From: Rosistilla carotiformis
GTDB lineage: Bacteria; Planctomycetota; Planctomycetia; Pirellulales; Pirellulaceae
DNA length: 64,000 bases
Reading direction: 5' to 3'
Assembly: GCF_007753095.1 (NCBI RefSeq)
Contig: NZ_CP036348.1
Coordinates: 5,929,411-5,993,410, forward strand
Numbering within the stretch: the stretch's first letter is position 1; the number at the start of each line of letters is the position of its first letter. The position numbers and the translations under genes were made by a program. The notes under the pieces were generated by a model. The model was not told the DNA's origin. It saw only the letters and a program-made list of their open reading frames with translations, and did no database searches. This document shows, piece by piece, positions 24,978 to 35,167 of this stretch.

Positions 24978-26191
24978 ATCGGCAATCGTTCCTCAAAATG
25001 AATCCTGCGCAACCGTTCCAGGTGATGTATTGGCGTCCCAAGCAGATCTCGCGGCGATGGTTGTGGGCTGGCATGCTCGCTTCGTTGGCCGGTTTGTTCG
25101 CCGTCGAATGGTGGCCTCAGCAAGTTGCCGCTCCATCGCCTCAATTGACAGCCGCTGCCGAAAAAGCGGACGAAGCGCTCCGCCACACCAAAGATCTGCG
25201 GATCGCTCAGGGGCATCGCGCATTGCCCAAGCTGGACCCCAGTGGATCCCACCTGATCGGCCCGTCGATGTCGATGGTCACTAGCAAGCTGGGTTCTTTG
25301 GAATCGAAGCAGACCTCGATCAACCCGAACCTCGCGGCAGTGGTCGTCCGTTGGTTGGAGCAGGCGGGCGTCGAGCCGGGAGATTCGATCGCGATCGGGG
25401 CCAGCGGATCTTGGCCGGCGCTGAACATCGCCGTCTATGCCGCTGCCGAAACGCTGCAACTGAAGCCGACAATCGTGCTGTCGGTGGCATCGAGCCAATA
25501 CGGCGCAAACTCCCCCGACATGATGTGGGTCGACATGGAACGCCAGCTCCGCGATGCCGGGATTTTTCCAGAGTCCTTCGCCGCGCAGAGCGCTTCGTTG
25601 GGAGGGCTGTTCGACCGCGCGGCCGGGATGACCGAACCAACGCGTGAGATGTTGGAACTGGCTGCGACCCGCAACGGCATCCCCGTGTTGGACGTCGCCG
25701 ACATCGAAGATTCGGTCGGTCAGCGGATGGAGATCTATCAAAACGCCAGCTCCGATCAACCGTATGCCGCCTACATCAATGTTGGTGGCGGATCGGCTTC
25801 GATCGGCGGCACAACCGGGAACGCCTGTTTCAGCGCCGGCGTGCATCGATCGACGCCAAGCGATCAAGAGGTCCCCGACTGTGTCGCTTCGCGAATGCTC
25901 GCCCAAGGCGTCCCGATTGTAAACGTCGTCGATGCAAAACAGATCGCGGAGTCCTACGGATTGGCGATCGCCCCGGCAGAGATGCCCCGCGTCGGCCAGG
26001 GATCGCTCTTCAGCCACATGACGTACCGTCGCCCGTTGGCAGCGGCATTGATCTGCATGACTTGGGTTTGGATGTCGGCGACCGTCTTCCCTCGCTGGTA
26101 CCTGAGGATGACGCTTCATCTGCGCCGCGTGTTCCGACGTTCCAAGCGCACGGCCAATGCCCTGCCCAAGCAGGTGGAATGGATGGTGTAA
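24974..26191 (+). CDS. pgsW: Poly-gamma-glutamate system protein PgsW
   Basis: 405 aa starting at ATGA overlap with pgsC. One N-terminal membrane helix (RWLWAGMLASLAGLFAVEWW) and another near the C-terminus (PLAAALICMTWVWMSATVF) flank a domain with SIAIGASGSWPALNIAVYAA and YINVGGGSASIGGTTGN. It matches the PgsW type found next to pgsB-pgsC in non-Bacillus lineages, where pgsA is absent. It probably takes part in polymer export or anchoring; its reaction is not known. No pgsA, pgsE or depolymerase gene is nearby. Confidence 0.85.
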   Translation: MNRQSFLKMNPAQPFQVMYWRPKQISRRWLWAGMLASLAGLFAVEWWPQQVAAPSPQLTAAAEKADEALRHTKDLRIAQGHRALPKLDPSGSHLIGPSMSMVTSKLGSLESKQTSINPNLAAVVVRWLEQAGVEPGDSIAIGASGSWPALNIAVYAAAETLQLKPTIVLSVASSQYGANSPDMMWVDMERQLRDAGIFPESFAAQSASLGGLFDRAAGMTEPTREMLELAATRNGIPVLDVADIEDSVGQRMEIYQNASSDQPYAAYINVGGGSASIGGTTGNACFSAGVHRSTPSDQEVPDCVASRMLAQGVPIVNVVDAKQIAESYGLAIAPAEMPRVGQGSLFSHMTYRRPLAAALICMTWVWMSATVFPRWYLRMTLHLRRVFRRSKRTANALPKQVEWMV

Positions 26192-26236
26192 TCGGCGACA
26201 GAATCATCCGCCGCCGGCTCACGTCGGGTTCGCCCG

Positions 26237-26995
26237 TTAACGTGTTACAAAGCCGCCGTTGACGAACAGAATCTGACCTGTCACCCAGGCCGAACCGGGC
26301 GAGCAGAGAAAGTCGATCATGGGAACGATGTCTTGGATCGTTCCCCGTCGATTGGCGACGCTCGCTGCACTCAAATAGGCAACCGACTCCGGACTTTCTT
26401 CGCCATGGAAGAACCCGGTGTCGACCGGTCCGGGAGCGACAACGTTGACCGTGACGCCGCGCCCCCCCACTTCTTTGGCCAGGGCGCGGGTGAAGTCTTC
26501 CAACGGGGCTTTCGATCCCGCGTAGACGCCGTAAAAGCCGGTGAAGGCGCCTAGCAACGAGGTTCCCAGAGAGATGATCCTTCCGTCGTCTTCGATCTCT
26601 TTGGCCGCCTCGCGCATGACGAAGAAAGCCGCTTTTGCATTGGCGTCGAACGACCGATCGAAATCCTCGTCGGTGTATTCGACAAACGGTTTCTTGATCA
26701 CGACGCCGGCGCAATTGATAACAAAATCGACCCGGCCAAATTCGGACTTCACCTTGTCGAAGATCTGCGCGACGGTCGCCGATTCAGCGAGATCGCCCGC
26801 CACGACGATCGCCCGTCCCCCCGCATCGACGATCTGATTCGCAGCCGCCTGGGCATCTTCTTGGGAACTCGCCCCGCGATGATGGACCGCCACCGCGGCG
26901 CCACGCTGAGCCAACGATTCTGCGAACGCGCGTCCCATGTTGCGTGCCGCTCCAAAGACGATCGCGACTTTGCCATTGAGATCTGTTTCAGGCAT
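26237..26995 (-). CDS. SDR family NAD(P)-dependent oxidoreductase
   Basis: 252 aa from ATG at 26995, which has GGAG six bases upstream; an ATG at 27016 is in frame but without a site. The Rossmann start is KVAIVFGAARNMGRAFAESL (a variant TGxxxGxG), followed by FVINCAGVVIKKP, SLGTSLLGAF with the catalytic Ser, and GVYAGSKAPLEDFTRALAKE with Tyr and Lys. A classical SDR of usual length. Cofactor preference and substrate are unclear. It converges on pgsW 45 bases away. Confidence 0.92.
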   Translation of the reverse strand: MPETDLNGKVAIVFGAARNMGRAFAESLAQRGAAVAVHHRGASSQEDAQAAANQIVDAGGRAIVVAGDLAESATVAQIFDKVKSEFGRVDFVINCAGVVIKKPFVEYTDEDFDRSFDANAKAAFFVMREAAKEIEDDGRIISLGTSLLGAFTGFYGVYAGSKAPLEDFTRALAKEVGGRGVTVNVVAPGPVDTGFFHGEESPESVAYLSAASVANRRGTIQDIVPMIDFLCSPGSAWVTGQILFVNGGFVTR

Positions 26996-27016
26996 GAGAT
27001 TCTCCAAAGTTGCCAT

Positions 27017-27266
27017 TTGAGTTTCGATGTCGTGGGCTGGCTGTTGGTGTCACGAGACAAAGGTTATTGAACGGTCTGTCTCCCCCCCGGAGGCTGGGCA
27101 TCTGTGACCAATCGCCGGTGCCGATTGTAACGATTTGCGAGTGATCGTTGATATGCATCCCCCCGAAGCGGGCCTGGGAAGAGGGACCTTAGCCGCACGG
27201 CAGGAGGCTGGGGGCCCGTTCACTGACGCGAGGTTATCGAATGGTTTCCCGATTCGAAGCCGCCGG
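27017..27266. other. Intergenic region before the hairpin array
   Basis: About 250 bases upstream of the SDR gene. It should contain the SDR promoter. It merges into the first unit of the 231-bp array; no gene seen. Confidence 0.3.
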
Positions 27267-28612
27267 GGGTGCCACGGGCTATGCCCGTGCTGCATTCCCG
27301 AGGTCACGGGAGAATAAACCACCAGACATTGATAGAAGCATGGGCGAGGTTGATCGCTGAGAGACTGTCGGGAACGACAACACCGTGGGGGATGGTCCGA
27401 GTTACCCTGCCGTTGGGTCCTCGATCGAAAAGCACTGGCAGAGCCAGTGCCACCCTGCACAGCAAACAGTCTCCACCGGAGGTCCACGAATTCTACGTGT
27501 GTGCCACGGGCTGTGCCCGTGCTGCATTCCCAAAGTCACAGGAGAATGAACCACCAGACATTGATACCAGCATGGGGCGAGGTTGATGCTGAGAAGATGC
27601 CGGGATCGATACTACCGTGGGTGATGGTCCGAGTTACCATGCCGTTGGGACTTCGATCGAAAAGCACTGGCAAAGCCAGTGGCACCCTGCACAGCAAACG
27701 GCAGCAACGGAGTTTCACGAATTCTACGTGTGTGCCCCGGGCTGTGCCCGTGCTGCATTCCCAAAGTCACGGGAGAATGAACCACCAGAAATTAATACCA
27801 GCATGGGAGAGGTTGATGCTGAGAAGATGCCGGGATCGATACCACCGTGGGTGATGGTCCGAGTTACCGGGCCGTTGGGACTTCGATCGGAAAGCACTGG
27901 CAAAGCCAGTGGCACCCTGCACAGCAAACAGTCTCCACCGGAGGTCCACGAATTCTACGTGTGTGCCACGGGCTATGCCCGTGCTGCATTCCCGAATTCA
28001 CGGGAGAATGGACCACCAGACATTGATACCAGCATGGGAGAGGTTGATCGCTGAGAGACTGTCTGGAACGACAACATCCTGGGTGATGGTCCGAGTTACC
28101 GTGCCGTTGGGACTTCGATCGAAAAGCACTGGCATAGCCAGTGGCACCCTGCACAGCAAACGGCAGCAACGGAGGTTCACGAATTCTACGTGTGTGCCAC
28201 GAGGCTATGCCCGTGCTGCATTCCCGAAGCCACGGGAGAATGAACCACCAGGCATTAATACCAGCATGGGCGAGGTTGATCGCTGAGAAACTGTCGGGAA
28301 CGACAACACCTTGGGTGATGGTCCGAGTAACCGTGCCGTTGGGACTTCGATCGAAAAGCACTGGCATAGCCAGTGCCACCCTGCACAGCAAACAGTCTCC
28401 ACCGGAGGTCCACGAATTCTACGTGTGTGCCACGGGCTGTGCCCGTGCTGCATTCCCAAAGTCACAGGAGAATGAACCACCAGACATTGATACCAGCATG
28501 GGGGGAGGTTGATGCTGAGAACCTGTCGGGAACGACAACACCTTGGGTGATGGTCAGATTTACCGTGCCGTTGGGACTTCGATCGAAAAGCACTGGCAAA
28601 GCCAGTGGCACC

Positions 28613-28665
28613 CCATGTGTCGAGTGTCGGAGTCGGGGCTGAATACTCCAACACTCGACACATGG
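28613..28665. repeat. Large hairpin inside the array
   Basis: A perfect 15-bp inverted repeat, CCATGTGTCGAGTGT against ACACTCGACACATGG, with a 23-base loop. A partial copy of its right half recurs at about 28882-28899, in the next unit. Confidence 0.8.
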
Positions 28666-29003
28666 CGTGCCACGGGCTCTGCCCGTGCTCCCTTGCCAAA
28701 CCCCCAGCGATCGAATGACCAACGGTGCCAGCCATACCATCAACCAACGCGAACACGGTCGGAACCAAAGGCAAAGCCACACGGGATTAGATAACGCTCC
28801 GAGATGCAGAGCACTGGGGCTTTGATCAGAAAGCACTGGCAAAGCCAGTGGCACCCGGCATCGGAGTCGGGACTGAATACTCCAACACTCGACACATGGG
28901 GTGCCATGGGCTTTGCCCTTGCTGAATTGCCAAAGGTCCCCGAGAATGCACCAGCTATCGATAACGCCAAAGTCATGGGGGTACGCTGAACCGGGAGCAG
29001 CCG

Positions 29004-29011
29004 AAGGGACG
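29004..29011. repeat. Target-site duplication, left copy
   Basis: AAGGGACG directly before the left terminal inverted repeat; the identical octamer directly follows the right one at 34774-34781. Confidence 0.85.
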
Positions 29012-29036
29012 GGCACTGCCTGAAACTTGTGTTGCT
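29012..29036. repeat. Left terminal inverted repeat (25 bp)
   Basis: Starts GGCACTGCCTGAAACTTGTG. Exactly complementary to 34749-34773; similarity stops abruptly after 25 bases, as expected for a transposon end. Confidence 0.9.
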
Positions 29037-29086
29037 CCGACCATCACCAGTTGAACCATCAGGGCGGATTAGTTCTCTTGCAATAC

Positions 29087-29692
29087 ATGAGCAAAGAACT
29101 ATTCAGCGACCTACGCAAGCTAGCCGAAGAAACTCGCAACCGCAAGCTTGACGAAATCCGTGCAGAGTACAGCGAGACCATCGCCGAAATCGCAGCGATG
29201 GAACAAAGGCTTATCGGGAAGCCGGTAGCAACCAGGCCAAAATCCAAACGGGAAGAGAAGCTTGTCGACCTTGTGGCAGCACTCATCCCAAACGATCGGA
29301 TCGTGACCGTTGACGATGTTCAAGGTCTCATTAAGTCTGCCGATCCAGATCGCAGCCCCAACATCCAGACCATTCGCGCGACGCTCCATCGCTTGGTCAA
29401 GGAAGGCACCATTAAGAAGGTGAGCCACCCGCAAGCCGACAAGAAGGTCGGCTATTGCTTGCCGGATTTTGATGCGGGCGAGCATCGATCACTGGCTGAC
29501 TGGGCAAGGCAAGTGTTAAGTGACACAGGCGAACCGTTGACAGCGGTTGACATAATGGTGCGAATGACTGAAGCGGGGTACGAATTGCCGTGTGAGCCGA
29601 GGGCGGCGGTTGAGCATCTTGAGAGGGCGTTGCGGCAGATCCCGATGGCAGTAGAGCACGGAGAAACGTGGCGGATGTATGACATCAAGTAA
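29087..29692 (+). CDS. Passenger: coiled-coil / winged-helix DNA-binding-like protein
   Basis: 201 aa from ATG at 29087 (MSKELFSDLRKLAEETRNRK); the frame is open upstream into the inverted repeat, so an earlier start is unlikely. Residues 1-45 form a likely coiled coil. Residues about 50-125 look like a winged helix (EKLVDLVAALIPNDRIVTVD, TIRATLHRLVKEGTIKKV). A second helical domain (LADWARQVLSDTGEPLTAVD) resembles another winged helix. It probably binds DNA; the family is not recognised. Its last 8 bases overlap the end of the convergent AlbA_2 gene. Confidence 0.7.
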   Translation: MSKELFSDLRKLAEETRNRKLDEIRAEYSETIAEIAAMEQRLIGKPVATRPKSKREEKLVDLVAALIPNDRIVTVDDVQGLIKSADPDRSPNIQTIRATLHRLVKEGTIKKVSHPQADKKVGYCLPDFDAGEHRSLADWARQVLSDTGEPLTAVDIMVRMTEAGYELPCEPRAAVEHLERALRQIPMAVEHGETWRMYDIK

Positions 29693-31298
29693 TATTATCC
29701 GATGCGTCTCTACTTCCGTCAGGCAAATCAATGTCGGATTTCAAGCGAAAAAAGGCCTGTGAGTCTCGTTCGCCATCGGGCTTAAATCGCACGTACTGTA
29801 AAACCTTCCGGCGAGTAAGTGTTATCAGTAGTTTCTTACACGTTCCCCATTCCTTGTCTAGCAAGCGAACGATGCTATTTACATTGCATTGGCCGTATTC
29901 AGCGATCCAATTCAGCACCCGTTTTTCGTCTTCGGAGAACTGCGATACAATAGCTTCGCCGACTATCTTACTTATGTCCTGGTCAACCCAGACTCGCCTT
30001 CGCTCGATATTGTTCTTCAGTCGCACCCTGACTATTGAGTACCCTATTTCGCTCTGCTTAAACTCAGGAGATGGCAGTTGCATCTCTTTCATAGTGTCGC
30101 GAATTCGCCTCGTGCCTTCCCGGTTCATCCTTACCAAGTTCAGGAAGTAAGCAGCCTCAAACACCCTTGGGTTCCTCGGGACCTCCATGTCGTAAATGTT
30201 ATCTGCGGTGACATATGGCGGGAATGGCCCTGGGCTCTCGATATCCAGGTGGTCGTCGAACATGCGAATCTTGACCTCTACGTTTTTCTTTCCGTCTCCG
30301 TAGGACCTATGAACGCATGCATTGACGATCGCTTCATACCAAGCTGTTTCAGGGTACTCCGGGACAGGGTAGAAAACGCCCCTGTGAAGTGGTGAGAATG
30401 TACGAAGGTGAGTTTTCAGCACCTGCTCTGCCCCTCGGATCATTTGCGGAATAGTTCCTTCTATCCACACATCTTGCACAGCGTTGTATTTTTCCCCAGT
30501 CCTCTCCATCGTTCCGTCAAAACGCAAGAACCGAACCCTACAGCCTGGGATGATGGCTCGAGGCTGTTTGGCAAATAGCAGAGCGCATGCGATGTTGGGA
30601 ACGAACCCATTCGGACCATTCTGGCCCAGGAAACGATTGGCCATCACTTCTTCATCCGAAAGACCATGCCCCGATCCCATCTTATCACGCACTTTCTGCG
30701 ACCACTGCGAGATTGCTGGCATGTCAAACCCGGAAGGGTACTCTAGCCCACAAGGCTCCTCTTCGAAGTTGACTTGCTTCTTGTCGACAGCTAGCTCCCT
30801 TGCTTCCTCTGGCTTTAGCTCGTGCTTTTCGTCACCCCTCCTGCAAAAAGCCAGCCCCTTTGATGTCTTGATGACGATTGACGGGTGATAATGCACTCTT
30901 AGTACGATGACGAAATCTTCTTTACCTGCGGTGTTTGTCACAGGAACTCGTTTCGACGAAACTTTTGCATCGGCACAAAACACAGAAGCCGCTTTTTCGA
31001 CTTTATTGATAAGGCTCTGGTTTTCATCTGCAAACCCGTCGTACCCTCCTCCGTCTTTCTTGTCGATTTGCCCTATTACCATCAAGCCACCGTCTGGTGG
31101 CGTATTGGCCCACATCGAAACATACTCGCCGATGTTTTCGCCACTGAACTTTTTGCGTTTCCGCTCGATTCGATTATCTTCGTTCAGTTTGTCAAGCAGC
31201 GTTTGATCGCACCGTTCATAGATTTCATCAGCAGTAAGCAGGTGGGTCAACTGATCATCGAACGGGAGAAGCGTTTGTTTGAGGCCTTTGGTCATCAT
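29685..31298 (-). CDS. Passenger: AlbA_2/Schlafen-type ATP-binding, DNA-binding-like protein
   Basis: 537 aa. The N-terminus has the AlbA_2 pattern (NRIERKRKKFSGENIGEYVS, then WANTPPDGGLMVIGQ and LAFCRRGDEKHEL). The centre and C-terminus match the HATPase-like domain found with it (AWYEAIVNACVHRSYGDGKK, HLDIESPGPFPPYVT, RNPRVFEAAYFLNLV, GTRRIRDTMKEMQLPSPEF). A winged-helix-like end follows (EKRVLNWIAEYGQCNVNSIV). Relatives are widespread on mobile DNA and their job is mostly unproven (regulation or defence are guesses). Two identical palindromes lie upstream, between it and the ribbon-helix-helix gene. Confidence 0.8.
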   Translation of the reverse strand: MMTKGLKQTLLPFDDQLTHLLTADEIYERCDQTLLDKLNEDNRIERKRKKFSGENIGEYVSMWANTPPDGGLMVIGQIDKKDGGGYDGFADENQSLINKVEKAASVFCADAKVSSKRVPVTNTAGKEDFVIVLRVHYHPSIVIKTSKGLAFCRRGDEKHELKPEEARELAVDKKQVNFEEEPCGLEYPSGFDMPAISQWSQKVRDKMGSGHGLSDEEVMANRFLGQNGPNGFVPNIACALLFAKQPRAIIPGCRVRFLRFDGTMERTGEKYNAVQDVWIEGTIPQMIRGAEQVLKTHLRTFSPLHRGVFYPVPEYPETAWYEAIVNACVHRSYGDGKKNVEVKIRMFDDHLDIESPGPFPPYVTADNIYDMEVPRNPRVFEAAYFLNLVRMNREGTRRIRDTMKEMQLPSPEFKQSEIGYSIVRVRLKNNIERRRVWVDQDISKIVGEAIVSQFSEDEKRVLNWIAEYGQCNVNSIVRLLDKEWGTCKKLLITLTRRKVLQYVRFKPDGERDSQAFFRLKSDIDLPDGSRDASDNIT

Positions 31299-31317
31299 TA
31301 CGACACGAACCTTTGCC

Positions 31318-31382
31318 AGGCTCGAGCCTCTCGTTTGGCATGTGTATTCAAAATCAACAACCGCAATCCTCGGCTCGAGCCT
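31318..31382. promoter_or_regulatory. Paired palindromes, candidate operators of the AlbA_2 gene
   Basis: GGCTCGAGCC occurs twice (31319-31328 and 31372-31381), the first within the longer palindrome AGGCTCGAGCCT. The centres are 53 bases apart, about five helical turns, so two dimers could bind the same face. They lie just upstream of the AlbA_2 start and downstream of the ribbon-helix-helix gene. Operator function is inference. Confidence 0.5.
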
Positions 31383-31437
31383 CTTGATCCGGAAAGCGGC
31401 CCGCGTCTCGGCTGACGCAGCAGCGTTATAAACTGTG

Positions 31438-31638
31438 CTAGGGTTCCGTCACATCGGACGGGTTCGACTCCCCCGCTTTCCGCTCACTCTGAGCGATGCG
31501 AAGCAATTCTAAACGCGCCCAGGTAGAAACCATCGTTCCGCCTGCGGCCCTCTCGATTGCCTCGTTCTCTGCATCGGATAGCCGTATGCGAAGAACGTTG
31601 TCTCGCCTTCGTTCTGCCTTTGTTTTTCTATCTGCCAT
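31438..31638 (-). CDS. Passenger: small ribbon-helix-helix-like regulator
   Basis: 66 aa, ATG at 31638. A basic N-terminus (KTKAERRRDNV) leads into LRIRLSDAENEAIERAAGGT, then STWARLELLRIA. This is the strand-helix-helix pattern of ribbon-helix-helix DNA-binding proteins (as in antitoxins and relaxosome accessory proteins). No toxin gene is beside it. It lies on the same strand as, and 139 bases upstream of, the AlbA_2 gene; paired palindromes in between are candidate binding sites. Confidence 0.6.
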   Translation of the reverse strand: MADRKTKAERRRDNVLRIRLSDAENEAIERAAGGTMVSTWARLELLRIAQSERKAGESNPSDVTEP

Positions 31639-31682
31639 CCGTGACCTTACGTGTCAAAAGCGTAGACACAATAGAGGGAGTG

Positions 31683-31721
31683 AAAAGAAAAACGCCTGAT
31701 CCAGCGTCAACTGGATCAGGC
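31683..31721 (-). terminator. Rho-independent terminator-like hairpin (minus strand)
   Basis: Perfect 11-bp stem GCCTGATCCAG / CTGGATCAGGC with a 6-base loop (31694-31721). Read on the minus strand it is followed by GTTTTTCTTTTC. No minus-strand gene ends here, so it may block read-through or antisense transcription into the small regulator gene. Confidence 0.7.
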
Positions 31722-31803
31722 ACGAAAACCCAGGCTGACGCCCAGAATTCCGCTTAGCATCTGAATTCTACCGCAATCAGCCGCAACTGCAAAAGGCTGA
31801 TCC

Positions 31804-32760
31804 GTGATTGCGCCATGTGAGCATGAAAATCGGAAGAAACACGGCAAAGACCGATACGGAAACCAGCGTTTCCGCTGCAAAAACTGCGGGCAGACTTTCC
31901 AAGAAGACCGCATTCGCCCCATCGGCACCATGCAAGTCGACCTAGACCGGGCGTGCATGGCGTTGTCAATGCTGCTTGAGGGCATGAGCATCCGTGGAAC
32001 CGCACGAATCACGAACATCGATCAGAACACGATCGGGAATCTGATCCTGACCGCTGGCGAGCAATGCGGGCGACTGCTTGATTCAATCTCGGGTGTCAGC
32101 GTCACTGACATTCAGATTGACGAAATTTGGACGTTTGTCGGCATGAAGCAGCGAACCGCGAACCTTCGCAACTTGGGCGATGATTCGAGTGTGGGCGACA
32201 GTTGGACTTATATCGCCGTTGAGCGGCACACGAAGATGGTTCTTGCTCATCACGCTGGCCGTCGCGACACGAATGACACGAACGTGTTTCTCGGCAAGGT
32301 GCGGCGTGCAATCGACGCATCGGCACCGTTTCAGGTTTCAACTGACGGATTGAGCAACTACCGGTACGGCGTGCCCTTTGCATTGGGATCGAATGCCAAC
32401 TTCGGAATGCTCATCAAGAAGTATGCGGCGCAGCAACAGGAAACCCGATACAGCCCAGCGGCAATAATAGGTGCTGAGAAGAAATCCGTGTTCGGTAGCC
32501 CCGATCCTGATTCGATCTGCACTAGCCATATTGAAACGCTGAACCAAAAGATCCGTATGCACTTGCGACGGTTTACACGCTTGACCGCTGGGCACAGCAA
32601 GAGCGTTGAGCATCACGTTGCAATGCAGAACATTTTCTTTGCGTGGTACAACTGGTGCCGAAAGCATCACACGTTGCGTCAAACGCCAGCGATGGAATGC
32701 GGGATCGCAATGACGAAGTGGAGCATTCGCGAGCTACTGGAATCGTCAGCAACTTGCTAG
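31804..32760 (+). CDS. IS1-family transposase, single-ORF type
   Basis: 318 aa, GTG at 31804. It begins with a zinc-ribbon/helix-turn-helix part (CEHENRKKHG then FRCKNCGQTF), comparable to InsA, fused to an InsB-like DDE catalytic part: IQIDEIWTFVGMK (first Asp), FQVSTDGLSNYRYG (second Asp), and HIETLNQKIRMHLRRFTR carrying the Glu. IS1 transposases recognise terminal repeats with a short duplication of 8-9 bp, which fits the ends of the surrounding 5.76-kb element. It looks intact. Its terminator has been interrupted by an IS3-family insertion. Confidence 0.88.
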   Translation: MIAPCEHENRKKHGKDRYGNQRFRCKNCGQTFQEDRIRPIGTMQVDLDRACMALSMLLEGMSIRGTARITNIDQNTIGNLILTAGEQCGRLLDSISGVSVTDIQIDEIWTFVGMKQRTANLRNLGDDSSVGDSWTYIAVERHTKMVLAHHAGRRDTNDTNVFLGKVRRAIDASAPFQVSTDGLSNYRYGVPFALGSNANFGMLIKKYAAQQQETRYSPAAIIGAEKKSVFGSPDPDSICTSHIETLNQKIRMHLRRFTRLTAGHSKSVEHHVAMQNIFFAWYNWCRKHHTLRQTPAMECGIAMTKWSIRELLESSATC

Positions 32761-32766
32761 AATGAG

Positions 32767-32784
32767 AAAGAGCCACGGCGGTAA
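32767..32784 (+). terminator. Left half of transposase terminator, split by IS3 insertion
   Basis: AAAGAGCCACGG then CGGTAA here; CCGTGGCTCTTTTTT continues at 34074 on the other side of the IS3 element. Joined, they give a perfect 12-bp stem, 6-base loop and T-tract directly behind the transposase stop. Confidence 0.88.
32781..32784. repeat. IS3 target duplication, left copy
   Basis: GTAA, repeated at 34070-34073 right after the other end of the element. Confidence 0.75.
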
Positions 32785-32828
32785 TGGGATGCCCCAGTTT
32801 TCTGCACCAGGCGTTATGAAAGATTGGG

Positions 32829-33722
32829 TTAGGAAACAGGGGTGGGTGATTCGCAGTGCTGCTGGAGTGAGGCCGTAGGCCGAACGGAAGCAGCACTGCG
32901 ATGCGCGAACTCTGATGGGGTTAGATAGCCAAGCGAACTGTGCGGGCGCTGGGTGTTGAAGTCCTCCCGCCAAGCTCGTGCTTTCATCCGTGTGTCGTCT
33001 TCATTGATCAAATCCGTTTGATGCAGATACTCGTCACGAAGCCGGCTGTTGAAACTCTCGCAGACACCGTTCTGCCATGGCGAGCCAGGTTCGATGTAAA
33101 GGATCTCAACGCCAATCTTTGCCAGCCATTGCTTGATCGCTGTCGAGATGAACTCGGGGCCGTTATCGCAACGAAGTCGTTTCGGAACGCCGTGCATTGC
33201 AAACAGCTCAGCCAGCGTGTCGATCGCATCTTCGCTCGTGATACTGCGGCCGACCTTGATCGTCAGGCATTGCCGCGTGTACTCATCGACGATGTTCAAG
33301 AAGCGAATCGTTCGTCCATCAAGTGTCGACGATTGCACGAAATCCCAGCTCCAAACATCGTGAACAAAACCTGCCGCTTGAACGTCGCATGCATTGCCTC
33401 GGACGCCAGTAGCACGCTTTTTGCGACGCTTTTGTGGCACCTTCAGCCCCGATGCTCTCCAAAGCCGATACATTTTTTTCCTGTTAATAGTCTCACCGTC
33501 GCGGCGAAGAAGTTGGCAGATACGTCGATACCCCCAGCGAGGACGCTCGCGAACAAAGTGAAGAATTCGCTTCGTCAGTCGCTCGTCTTCGTCTTTGGGT
33601 TTCCCCTCAAATCGCTGGCTCGATCGCGGTTGGTCGAGCACGCGGCAGGCACGTCGTTGCGACACAGCGAACTTCTGTTGAAGCTCTGCTACTGCCGCGC
33701 GTCGCGATCGAGGGGTCGTCAG
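32829..33722 (-). CDS. IS3-family transposase OrfB (DDE integrase domain)
   Basis: The frame runs from the -1 frameshift point at 33722 (LTTPRSRRAAVAELQQKFAV); the first standalone start is GTG-type at 33665 (VSQRRACRVLDQPRSSQRF), 278 aa. HTH-like part: RILHFVRERPRWGYRRI. The catalytic core (rve) has DVWSWDFVQ (first Asp), LRCDNGPEFIS (second Asp) and SPWQNGVCESFNSRLRDE (Glu). The typical tail FNTQRPHSSLGYLTPSEF is present. OrfB joins and cuts DNA once fused to OrfA. No inactivating mutation seen. Confidence 0.93.
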   Translation of the reverse strand: MTTPRSRRAAVAELQQKFAVSQRRACRVLDQPRSSQRFEGKPKDEDERLTKRILHFVRERPRWGYRRICQLLRRDGETINRKKMYRLWRASGLKVPQKRRKKRATGVRGNACDVQAAGFVHDVWSWDFVQSSTLDGRTIRFLNIVDEYTRQCLTIKVGRSITSEDAIDTLAELFAMHGVPKRLRCDNGPEFISTAIKQWLAKIGVEILYIEPGSPWQNGVCESFNSRLRDEYLHQTDLINEDDTRMKARAWREDFNTQRPHSSLGYLTPSEFAHRSAASVRPTASLQQHCESPTPVS

Positions 33723-34000
33723 TTTCCCTTGGTGATTTCCTTCAGCATCGAAATATCCAAAGCTTGGTCGGCCACAATCTTCTTGAGTCGGTTGTTCTCC
33801 TCCTCAAGTGCCCTAAGACGCTTGGCCTCTTCGCTCTTCATGCCGCCATACTGGCTCCGCCAGCGGCTCAGCGTGGCCTCGCTAACTTCCAGTGCTTGGA
33901 GAACCTCACCCACGCTCTTGTCGGCGGCAAGCATGGCATCCGCGTCACGCAGCTTCTTGATGATCTGTTCGGGTGAATGTCGTCGTCGTTTCTTGCTCAT
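33719..34000 (-). CDS. IS3-family transposase OrfA (helix-turn-helix, leucine zipper)
   Basis: 93 aa, ATG at 34000. Helix-turn-helix: HSPEQIIKKLRDADAMLAAD ... LEVSEATLSRWRSQYGGM. A coiled-coil/leucine zipper follows (RLRALEEENNRLKKIVADQA). It ends EITKGN* at 33719; the last codons contain the GGGAAAC slippery heptamer that would shift ribosomes to OrfB. OrfA alone usually binds the ends and regulates transposition. Confidence 0.93.
   Translation of the reverse strand: MSKKRRRHSPEQIIKKLRDADAMLAADKSVGEVLQALEVSEATLSRWRSQYGGMKSEEAKRLRALEEENNRLKKIVADQALDISMLKEITKGN
33722..33728 (-). promoter_or_regulatory. Programmed -1 frameshift site GGGAAAC
   Basis: In the OrfA frame it reads AAG GGA AAC TGA, so G GGA AAC fits the X XXY YYZ rule with the stop codon next. 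Slipping one base back continues into the OrfB frame without a stop (LTTPRSRR). This would yield the OrfAB fusion used by IS3 elements. Confidence 0.8.
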
Positions 34001-34069
34001 GGAAAATCCTTTGCCGGAATTGGCTCTAGACTTTCATAACACCTGGATCAGGTTTTGGGGAGCATTCCA

Positions 34070-34088
34070 GTAACCGTGGCTCTTTTTT
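34070..34088 (+). terminator. IS3 duplication right copy and right half of split terminator
   Basis: GTAA (34070-34073) is the right copy of the IS3 target duplication. CCGTGGCTCTTTTTT follows and is the exact complement arm and T-tract of the half at 32767. Confidence 0.82.
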
Positions 34089-34165
34089 GTTCCCTTTCGA
34101 GAACGCCGAAATTGCAGCGTCATTGTACGCAAAAAAGCGTTCTTGTTCAACGCTTGGATTGCGCG

Positions 34166-34714
34166 ATGGTTAAGTGTAAAGATTGTGGGTGGCTGTCGGT
34201 TCAGGATCAAAAACACATATGGCATTCTGCTGATAGCCGATTTCGGGTCAAAGGAGTGTCGTCCGGCGATTTCATTGATACGCCGCTGTGCAGTGAAGAC
34301 CTGCTCGAAAGTTGCGGCAACGGTTCTTCAAAAGCTACGATACTGGCGACAATCGGGAAGGATCGCGAATGTAGCGGTTTCATTCCCGTAGTAAACGGAA
34401 GGGAGTTAAAGGGGTATAAGGAGATGCAAGCGGTTGAAGTTCTACGAATTGAGACACGACAGAACCGGGCCGAAGACAAGGCAGAACTGTTGAAGTACCG
34501 CATGGAAGACAAAGCGGAGCGAGAGGAACAGCGAGCTGCCAGTGAAGCAAGGTACAGAAAGGAGAGGAACCGCACCTACGTTGCCATCGTGCTGGCGGCG
34601 GTCCTGACGTTTCTAGCGTCGTACTCGATGTACAAAATCGAGTCTACAGCCAAAGATCAGGCATCCCCCGCGACGGCATCCCCCGAACCCGCATCCAGTG
34701 CGGTATCGCCTTAG
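34166..34714 (+). CDS. Passenger: Cys-containing protein with coiled coil and C-terminal membrane anchor
   Basis: 182 aa from ATG at 34166 (MVKCKDCGWLSVQDQ); the open frame reaches further upstream across the terminator remnant, which is unlikely to be coding. N-terminal CKDC plus later Cys residues (LCSEDLLESC, ECSG) could make a zinc ribbon. Residues about 100-145 are charged coiled coil (RMEDKAEREEQRAASEARYR), followed by one membrane helix (TYVAIVLAAVLTFLASYSMY) and an Ala/Ser/Pro tail. Family not recognised. It is the last gene before the right inverted repeat, so a passenger. Confidence 0.65.
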   Translation: MVKCKDCGWLSVQDQKHIWHSADSRFRVKGVSSGDFIDTPLCSEDLLESCGNGSSKATILATIGKDRECSGFIPVVNGRELKGYKEMQAVEVLRIETRQNRAEDKAELLKYRMEDKAEREEQRAASEARYRKERNRTYVAIVLAAVLTFLASYSMYKIESTAKDQASPATASPEPASSAVSP

Positions 34715-34748
34715 CATTTACTGGAAGTCGTGGCGTGAAAAAGTTTTT

Positions 34749-34773
34749 AGCAACACAAGTTTCAGGCAGTGCC
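34749..34773. repeat. Right terminal inverted repeat (25 bp)
   Basis: Reads AGCAACACAAGTTTCAGGCA on the plus strand and continues GTGCC; exact complement of 29012-29036. Confidence 0.9.
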
Positions 34774-34781
34774 AAGGGACG
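34774..34781. repeat. Target-site duplication, right copy
   Basis: AAGGGACG immediately outside the right inverted repeat. Confidence 0.85.
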
Positions 34782-35167
34782 GCCGCCGGGAACCAAAGCC
34801 CGTTGAATGATGGTTTTGAGTCATCGAACCCGAACTACTTCGATCGAAAAGCACTGGCAGAGCCAGTGCCACCCTACACAGCCGACGTCCACCGAAAGAG
34901 GTCCCAATGCTAGGGGTGCCACGGGCTATGCCCGTGTTCCGCTGCCGGAGCCCCGACGAATAGACGACTCAGCGGTGTCTAACGCCATCGAACGTGGACG
35001 AGTCTCCCTGCAGCAGATGAGATATCGCTGAAGAAGCCTTGATATTGTTCGCTGGTTGGAACGATGGAGCAACTGAAGATTCGATCGGAAAGCACTGGCA
35101 AGCCAGTGGCACTCAATCGACCGAAATCTAGGCACCTCGAAAGGAAGGCAATAAGACTCAGCAAACG
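34782..35167. repeat. Right part of the hairpin array
   Basis: Non-coding. Hairpin A copies start at 34851 and 35092, hairpin B at 34918. This continues the array that stops at 29011, so the transposon inserted within it. No gene is seen between here and the rplL terminator. Confidence 0.8.

Follow-up and report, generated by a model that had tools for sequence, protein, structure and literature searches.

The stretch of DNA analyzed here (the window) comprises 64,000 nucleotides of Rosistilla carotiformis (contig NZ_CP036348.1, positions 5,929,411 to 5,993,410 of the forward strand) and contains a putative transposon of 5762 bp. The unit is enclosed by two terminal inverted repeats, of which the left one, GGCACTGCCTGAAACTTGTGTTGCT, occupies positions 29012–29036 of the window (plus strand) and the right one, located by a repeat search, positions 34749–34773 (minus strand); the two arms span 25 nt and are 100% complementary. 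Immediately outside them, the octamer AAGGGACG was read directly at 29004–29011 and again at 34774–34781. Based on base composition, ~1e-6 perfect inverted pairs of this kind with a spacing of up to 10 kb are expected by chance in 64 kb, and ~2e-11 when the octamer is included. The signature of the IS1 family consists of ends of ~25 bp that start with GGnnnTG and a target duplication of 8–9 bp. Consistent with this signature, the ends of the window element start with GGCACTG and its duplication measures 8 bp; the relatives described below have the same type of end.

From left to right, the element contains a winged-helix gene, a gene for a 537-aa HATPase protein, a ribbon-helix-helix (RHH) gene, the transposase gene, a nested IS3-family copy and a small gene for a CxxC/membrane protein. 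The winged-helix (wHTH) gene lies by the left end (29087–29692, plus strand); its frame is open from 29027 and the ATG at 29087 was chosen by eye. Homologues are present in seven other elements, all from one transposase clade. ‘Winged helix’ is a tentative name based on weak Pfam matches and the look of the sequence, as is the name of the RHH-type gene (31438–31638, minus strand), which gave a weak NikA-like Pfam match and diverges from the transposase gene. The AlbA_2-like/HATPase_c_4 cargo protein of 537 aa (29685–31298, minus strand) matches PF13749 with 1.1e-14 and, over residues 38–442, the PADLOC model PDLC02394 (pAgo) with 3.7e-40. The IS1-type DDE transposase is encoded in a single frame of 318 aa (31804–32760, plus strand; D106, D181, E244). 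The second cargo gene (34166–34714, plus strand; ATG 34166 chosen by eye in the open reading frame 34055–34714) encodes a small protein in which an N-terminal, zinc-ribbon-like CxxC motif and a C-terminal membrane segment were recognized by eye; it has a homologue in the related locus L075 and matched no Pfam family. With four genes not of transposase type between IS-type ends, the element has the composition that defines the transporter insertion sequences (tIS), a recognized class with IS-type ends, a transposase and passenger genes inside (PMC9330008, PMC3129680).

The transposase scored 102 bits against the IS1 model NF033558 (cut-off 100) and 31.5 bits against PF03400 (cut-off 24.1). Its N-terminal zinc domain matches NF050000, IS1_IS1595_Zn, with 38.9 bits (cut-off 28; 9e-10), and its helix-turn-helix segment gave a weak match only. 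All 39 aligned sequences have Asp106, Asp181 and Glu244, which correspond to the D, D and E residues of Escherichia coli InsB. Tyr216 is likewise present in all 39 rows, within a stretch where E. coli InsB and a classical planctomycete copy have a gap; together with Pro218 it is invariant in a 13-row alignment. Two parts of the original prediction, which had been made without database searches, are upheld: the 25-bp perfect inverted ends with flanking octamers around a 5762-bp unit, and the IS1-like transposase at 31804. The five genes it had listed all proved to be open reading frames at the places given; Pfam, however, sees only HATPase_c_4 in the window protein and recognizes the AlbA_2 half only in homologues, and the nested IS3 copy had been missed.

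The element shares with classical IS1 the IS1 DDE domain, the zinc ribbon, the GGnnnTG ends and the 8–9 bp duplication, but it differs from it in its single 318-aa frame, in an additional conserved segment that lies between D181 and E244, in its length (5.8 kb with cargo instead of 0.77–0.79 kb) and in its RHH and winged-helix genes. Because the classical form (~0.8 kb, transposase genes only, insA/insB frameshift) does not describe a unit of 5762 bp with a single transposase frame and four other genes, we filed the element under a tIS branch of IS1. For reference, an E. coli IS1 copy (L118) has the end GGTAATG, and the classical IS1 copies of four planctomycete genomes measure 781–790 bp, with ends GGTAGTG or GGTGGTG; their duplications are mostly of 8 bp, with one of 9 bp and two copies lacking any. 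Classical copies of this length are multi-copy in two genomes, G505 (L123, L136, L141, L145, L148, L151) and G410 (L122, L135, L140, L144, L149); several are two-frame, and L141 and L145 are those without a duplication.

The ends vary between elements, and the transposase was therefore used as the probe for relatives. Matches were obtained in 16 of 392 genomes in a search of the phylum (E ≤1e-30) and in 40 of 397 genomes in a search of the class (E ≤1e-40), the genome of the window being included in both; places matched solely in the phylum search were left out of the survey. The class search yielded 61 places besides that of the window, of which 42, in 40 regions and for the most part of higher similarity, were examined together with three named loci. 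One of the 45 transposase places, L060, is the same as L028 and was dropped, leaving 44; L073, which repeats L072, was kept in the count. IS1-type ends (at least 19 of 25 positions matching) and an exact 8-bp duplication were found at 33 of the 44 related places. A similar finder operating with these two thresholds returned nothing in 210 triplet-block shuffles or at 25 unrelated loci, most of which were only 3–4 kb long. Together with four further places that have ends but no exact duplication, and with that of the window, the set comprises 38 planctomycete elements of 2413–9871 bp, each far longer than its transposase gene and each with further open frames. Two identical copies of 3318 bp, cargo included, occur in one genome (G683) with different duplications (GGATTGTG and CCCAACCT), and a third copy there is truncated. 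Because the two identical copies sit at different sites, the passenger genes of this relative must move with the element, and we infer that those of the window copy do so as well.

Relatives are also encoded in 175 stretches of virus-classified contigs, of which the best 80 were used. By the rule applied here (GGnnnTG, at least 17 of 25 positions, exact 8-bp duplication), 38 of the 80 loci could be delimited, with lengths of 1891–5262 bp (median 3353, none <1500), compared with 0 of 160 shuffles. The 38 include three pairs of the same length, ends and duplication, leaving 35 distinct elements for the cargo analyses; all 35 have at least one open frame of at least 100 residues beside the transposase. 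Some of the virus-classified contigs may be chromosome or plasmid, and 50,697 phage records held a single relative, in Brevundimonas phage Gurke (28%). Among the alphaproteobacterial plasmid loci L114–L117, three of four were delimited (2634–4224 bp); no ends were found at the plasmid loci L117, L119, L120 and L121. None of the delimited planctomycete or viral-contig elements comes near the 781–790 bp of ordinary planctomycete IS1.

The transposase tree pairs the window with L027 (100/99) and places the two in a clade of eight rows (100/99). All eight members of this clade have the winged-helix gene, which is broken in L027; tblastn at E 1e-3 detected it in none of the other planctomycete loci fetched, and 1 of 38 viral-contig elements has it. 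It reads inward from the element end, on the left in six members and on the right in two (L057_12052, L058_7879). A profile for the RHH gene, built from 12 elements, detected this gene in 24 of 38 planctomycete elements, a count that includes both L072 and its copy L073. The gene was always on the strand opposite to the transposase, and the 425 kb flanking 32 of the loci gave no match.

The region between these parts behaves differently. Although L026 and L056 share 78% DNA identity in the transposase and near-identical ends, their middle parts have no DNA similarity at E 1e-3; therefore, the cargo changes faster than the core. A search for homologues of the window cargo in 297 genomes matched four, the window's own included. 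One homologue of the 537-aa protein (50% identity, G492) belongs to an element of 4022 bp that is flanked by an exact 8-bp duplication and has a different IS1-type transposase (30% identity) and ends that match at 17 of 25 positions. Another is found in G630 at a contig edge, beside sequence that resembles RHH genes by eye. For a homologue at L155/L158 the match covers residues 254–480 only and no element with a duplication was obtained; the viral contigs contained no homologue. The original prediction had asked whether its inverted repeats delimit other copies: the exact 25-mer has no match elsewhere in the genome contigs searched, yet at three quarters of the related places similar ends and an exact 8-bp duplication are present. 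It had also asked whether passenger genes travel together, which they do in the identical copies of one relative, whereas between elements they are mostly swapped. Its view of the unit as a transporter-type IS1 relative is supported by the four non-transposase genes and by the recurrence of the same kind of layout in relatives.

Three further observations concern the distribution of cargo. In a Rubrobacter plasmid (L160:3640-7056), a much longer protein begins with a homologue of the window cargo, and its gene adjoins a Tn3-family transposase. A cargo family of 265–300 aa, which the identical 3318-bp copies carry, is common to L059, L072 (with its copy L073) and L075; the L072 and L075 members had no Pfam match. 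In Mesorhizobium and Methylocapsa plasmids (L115, L117), a PD-Lambda-2-like gene pair adjoins an IS1-type transposase, as in planctomycete elements (~37% identity for the larger gene), which suggests transfer across phyla.

The planctomycete cargo was scanned as chosen proteins, 30 by Pfam, 10 further mixed proteins and 30 by PADLOC. The Pfam assignments are HTH_3 and Peptidase_M78 (XRE-IrrE, PD-Lambda-2-like) for L026, PIN for L056 and L086, HTH_3 for L057 (with a Gp49 neighbor below the cut-off), AAA_21 for L061, PIN_10 and DUF433 for L062, NYN for L065, GmrSD for L068, P63C for L071, Panacea for L080, N6_N4_Mtase for L084, HigB for L094 and a second transposase for L066. PADLOC matched 9 of 30 cargo proteins at E 1e-30 or better, including one type II methyltransferase; PD-Lambda-2_B was assigned to L026, L067, L091, L092 and L094, HEC-04 to L061, HEC-06 to L068 and HEC-09 to L065. 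Of 10 flanking host genes used as a control, none matched. The viral-contig cargo was taken by length alone (up to two of the longest other open reading frames for each of the 35 distinct elements, 67 proteins) and yielded HTH_3 (10), Peptidase_M78 (9), N6_N4_Mtase (4), P63C (3), SocA_Panacea (2) and SDH_protease (2), as well as HipA_2, Mrr_cat, AAA_21, Lar and an acetyltransferase (1 each), among the 25 of 37 families shown and without a host-gene control. The cargo of the window itself differs from that of the relatives in that it matches none of the PD-Lambda-2 and HEC candidate defence families of PADLOC at E ≤1; its best PADLOC match is to the first 40% of the pAgo model PDLC02394. The HATPase part matches 3lmm, a solved structure whose function is unknown. 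A streptococcal homologue gives a clear SLFN_AlbA_2 match (2.9e-19) and the G492 homologue a weak one (0.0015); the domain was not detected in the G630 homologue or the window protein.

Collectively, these data make it very probable that the window element is an autonomous transposon of a cargo-bearing, tIS-type branch of IS1 whose cargo is exchangeable. Several observations weigh against this reading. The element is present as a single copy in its own genome, and no clean empty site was found in the congeners G594 and G662, both of which lack the whole block 26191–35155 and do not contain AAGGGACG there. Among the 44 related places, four (L027, L028, L067, L087) show ends that lack an exact duplication, and seven (L063, L069, L074, a truncated copy, L077, L078, L081, L095) were not delimited; the same applies to 42 of the 80 viral-contig loci. 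The RHH gene is not universal in the branch: it was not detected in 14 of 38 planctomycete and 32 of 38 viral-contig elements, 6 of the latter having it. Concerning the cargo, 16 of the 30 chosen planctomycete proteins have no Pfam family above the cut-off, and with PADLOC 19 of 30 had no match and 2 weak ones only. The nine clear PADLOC matches were not blind, five having been picked with Pfam results and four being known homologues of the L026 gene, and the contrast of 9/30 to 0/10 is only suggestive. Finally, no Ago domain was found in the window cargo, whose pAgo match concerns the N-terminal part of the model only.

Alternative explanations differ in which of these data they accommodate. 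The inverted repeats might belong to an older composite or non-autonomous structure, into which the transposase and the other genes landed by chance; in favor of this, the IS3 copy is a true nested insertion. We nevertheless consider such a history barely credible, given that the same arrangement with matching ends recurs in 37 other planctomycete elements, that whole identical copies occupy two sites and that no second relative of this transposase was found in the window's own genome. A composite transposon proper was rejected: there are no two flanking IS copies, only the 25-bp inverted ends, and the sole further IS inside is of IS3 type. Membership in the IS1595 family, whose members have 8-bp duplications and passenger genes, has to be weighed as well. 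The duplications measure 8 bp and not 9, though 9 and 10 were also tried in delimiting, and the NF050000 zinc domain (9e-10) is common to both families. The 781–790 bp planctomycete IS1 copies, however, mostly duplicate 8 bp too, ends of the form GGTA[CG]TG agree with GGTAATG of E. coli IS1, and the catalytic domain matches the IS1 models PF03400 and NF033558, all of which renders an IS1595 element highly improbable. This candidate was rejected on the ISXO2-like DDE domain, for which, as for IS1595, no model matched at E ≤1.

A different objection accepts a tIS but regards its cargo as random host genes without a bias towards defence or toxin-antitoxin functions. Many cargo proteins without any family match would fit this explanation, as would the small size of the PADLOC contrast with its unblinded matches; moreover, the length-picked set, with 25 of its 37 families shown and no host-gene control, also contains ordinary families such as SDH_protease (2) and an acetyltransferase (1). 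The same 67 proteins, however, gave Peptidase_M78 nine times, N6_N4_Mtase four times, SocA_Panacea twice and HipA_2, Mrr_cat and AAA_21 once each, and PD-Lambda-2-like genes recur across transposase clades. We therefore regard randomly acquired cargo as unlikely.

For the cargo-bearing IS1 transposon, the following mechanism can be proposed. The DDE transposase would recognize the 25-bp GGnnnTG ends and insert the whole unit at an 8-bp staggered cut. The protein of the divergent RHH gene is most likely a repressor that acts on a transposase promoter located between the two genes, as its conserved place suggests, and the winged-helix gene at the element end is probably a clade-specific accessory that encodes a regulator or end-binding protein. 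Between these fixed parts, cargo is swapped from one element to another, as their comparison shows. It may pay for the element by host protection or addiction, because much of the recognizable cargo falls into toxin-antitoxin, restriction or candidate anti-phage classes. More tentatively, and with slightly less than even confidence, we propose that this branch of IS1 is an obligate carrier across planctomycetes, alphaproteobacterial plasmids and virus-classified contigs, in which exchangeable modules of toxin-antitoxin, restriction and anti-phage type are shuttled by a fixed core (GGnnnTG ends, single-frame transposase and, in many cases, a divergently oriented RHH repressor gene); the AlbA_2-like/HATPase gene of the window and its membrane partner would constitute one such undescribed module.

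A full-text literature search, judged mainly by titles and abstract openings and with subscription papers and ISfinder entries outside its scope, revealed no report of a cargo-bearing IS1 branch with this core, which may already be named. Compared with other tIS, every delimited relative here has room and open frames for cargo. Tn7-like transposons reportedly carry many defence systems as cargo (PMC8649781) and are likewise bounded transposons, but their transposition machinery is unrelated to the one IS1-type transposase with 8-bp duplication seen here. IS1 is the textbook minimal element, whereas every delimited member of the present branch is long enough for cargo. Its precisely readable ends offer a simple handle for small mobile modules such as toxin-antitoxin or defence genes, as the content between GGnnnTG ends beside this transposase can be taken directly. 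The branch may help to explain how such genes come to be scattered singly over the chromosomes of planctomycetes, and it opens cargo exchange from transposon to transposon to direct testing.

The nested IS3-family copy (32785–34069, minus strand; 1285 bp) contains open reading frames at 32829–33665 and 33719–34000 on the minus strand and is flanked by the duplication GTAA (32781–32784 and 34070–34073). Four further identical copies are found elsewhere in the genome, each with its own 4-bp duplication. The copy sits in the loop of a hairpin terminator that follows the transposase gene, splitting it into a 5′ arm (32760–32778, plus strand) and a 3′ arm (34074–34092). When the IS3 flanks are joined with one GTAA, they fold into a 19-bp stem with a run of T at the end (−29.2 kcal/mol); another fold of the terminator, for which the join retained a few IS3 bases, gave a z value of −6.3 relative to shuffles. 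The IS3 copy landed in the terminator loop at a later time, with the five reading frames staying open. Without it, the element measures ~4473 bp, inside the range of the relatives L026, L027, L056 and L057 (4219–4876 bp). The largest delimited relative (L066:3593-13463, 9871 bp) contains a second, unrelated transposase (DDE_Tnp_1), and another transposon may be nested there, like IS3 in the window.

To the left of the element lies a tandem array with units at 27429, 27661, 27891, 28123, 28355, 28587 and 28830; the next unit starts at 34848. The spacing is 230–243 within the array and 6018 across the element, which becomes 248 after subtraction of the element and one octamer (5770). This value is close to 230–243, and the element has therefore split one tandem repeat unit. 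The ~232-bp units, at 27429–28970 and 34838–35120, each contain a palindromic pair (like GCACTGGCAAAGCCAGTGGCACC / GGTGCCACGGGCTATGCCCGTGCT), and the congener G662 has many scattered stretches that resemble the array. In place of the 9-kb block 26191–35155, ~0.3–0.4 kb stands in G594 and G662. Besides the array and the element, the block includes an SDR-like gene, named by eye, at 26237–27016.

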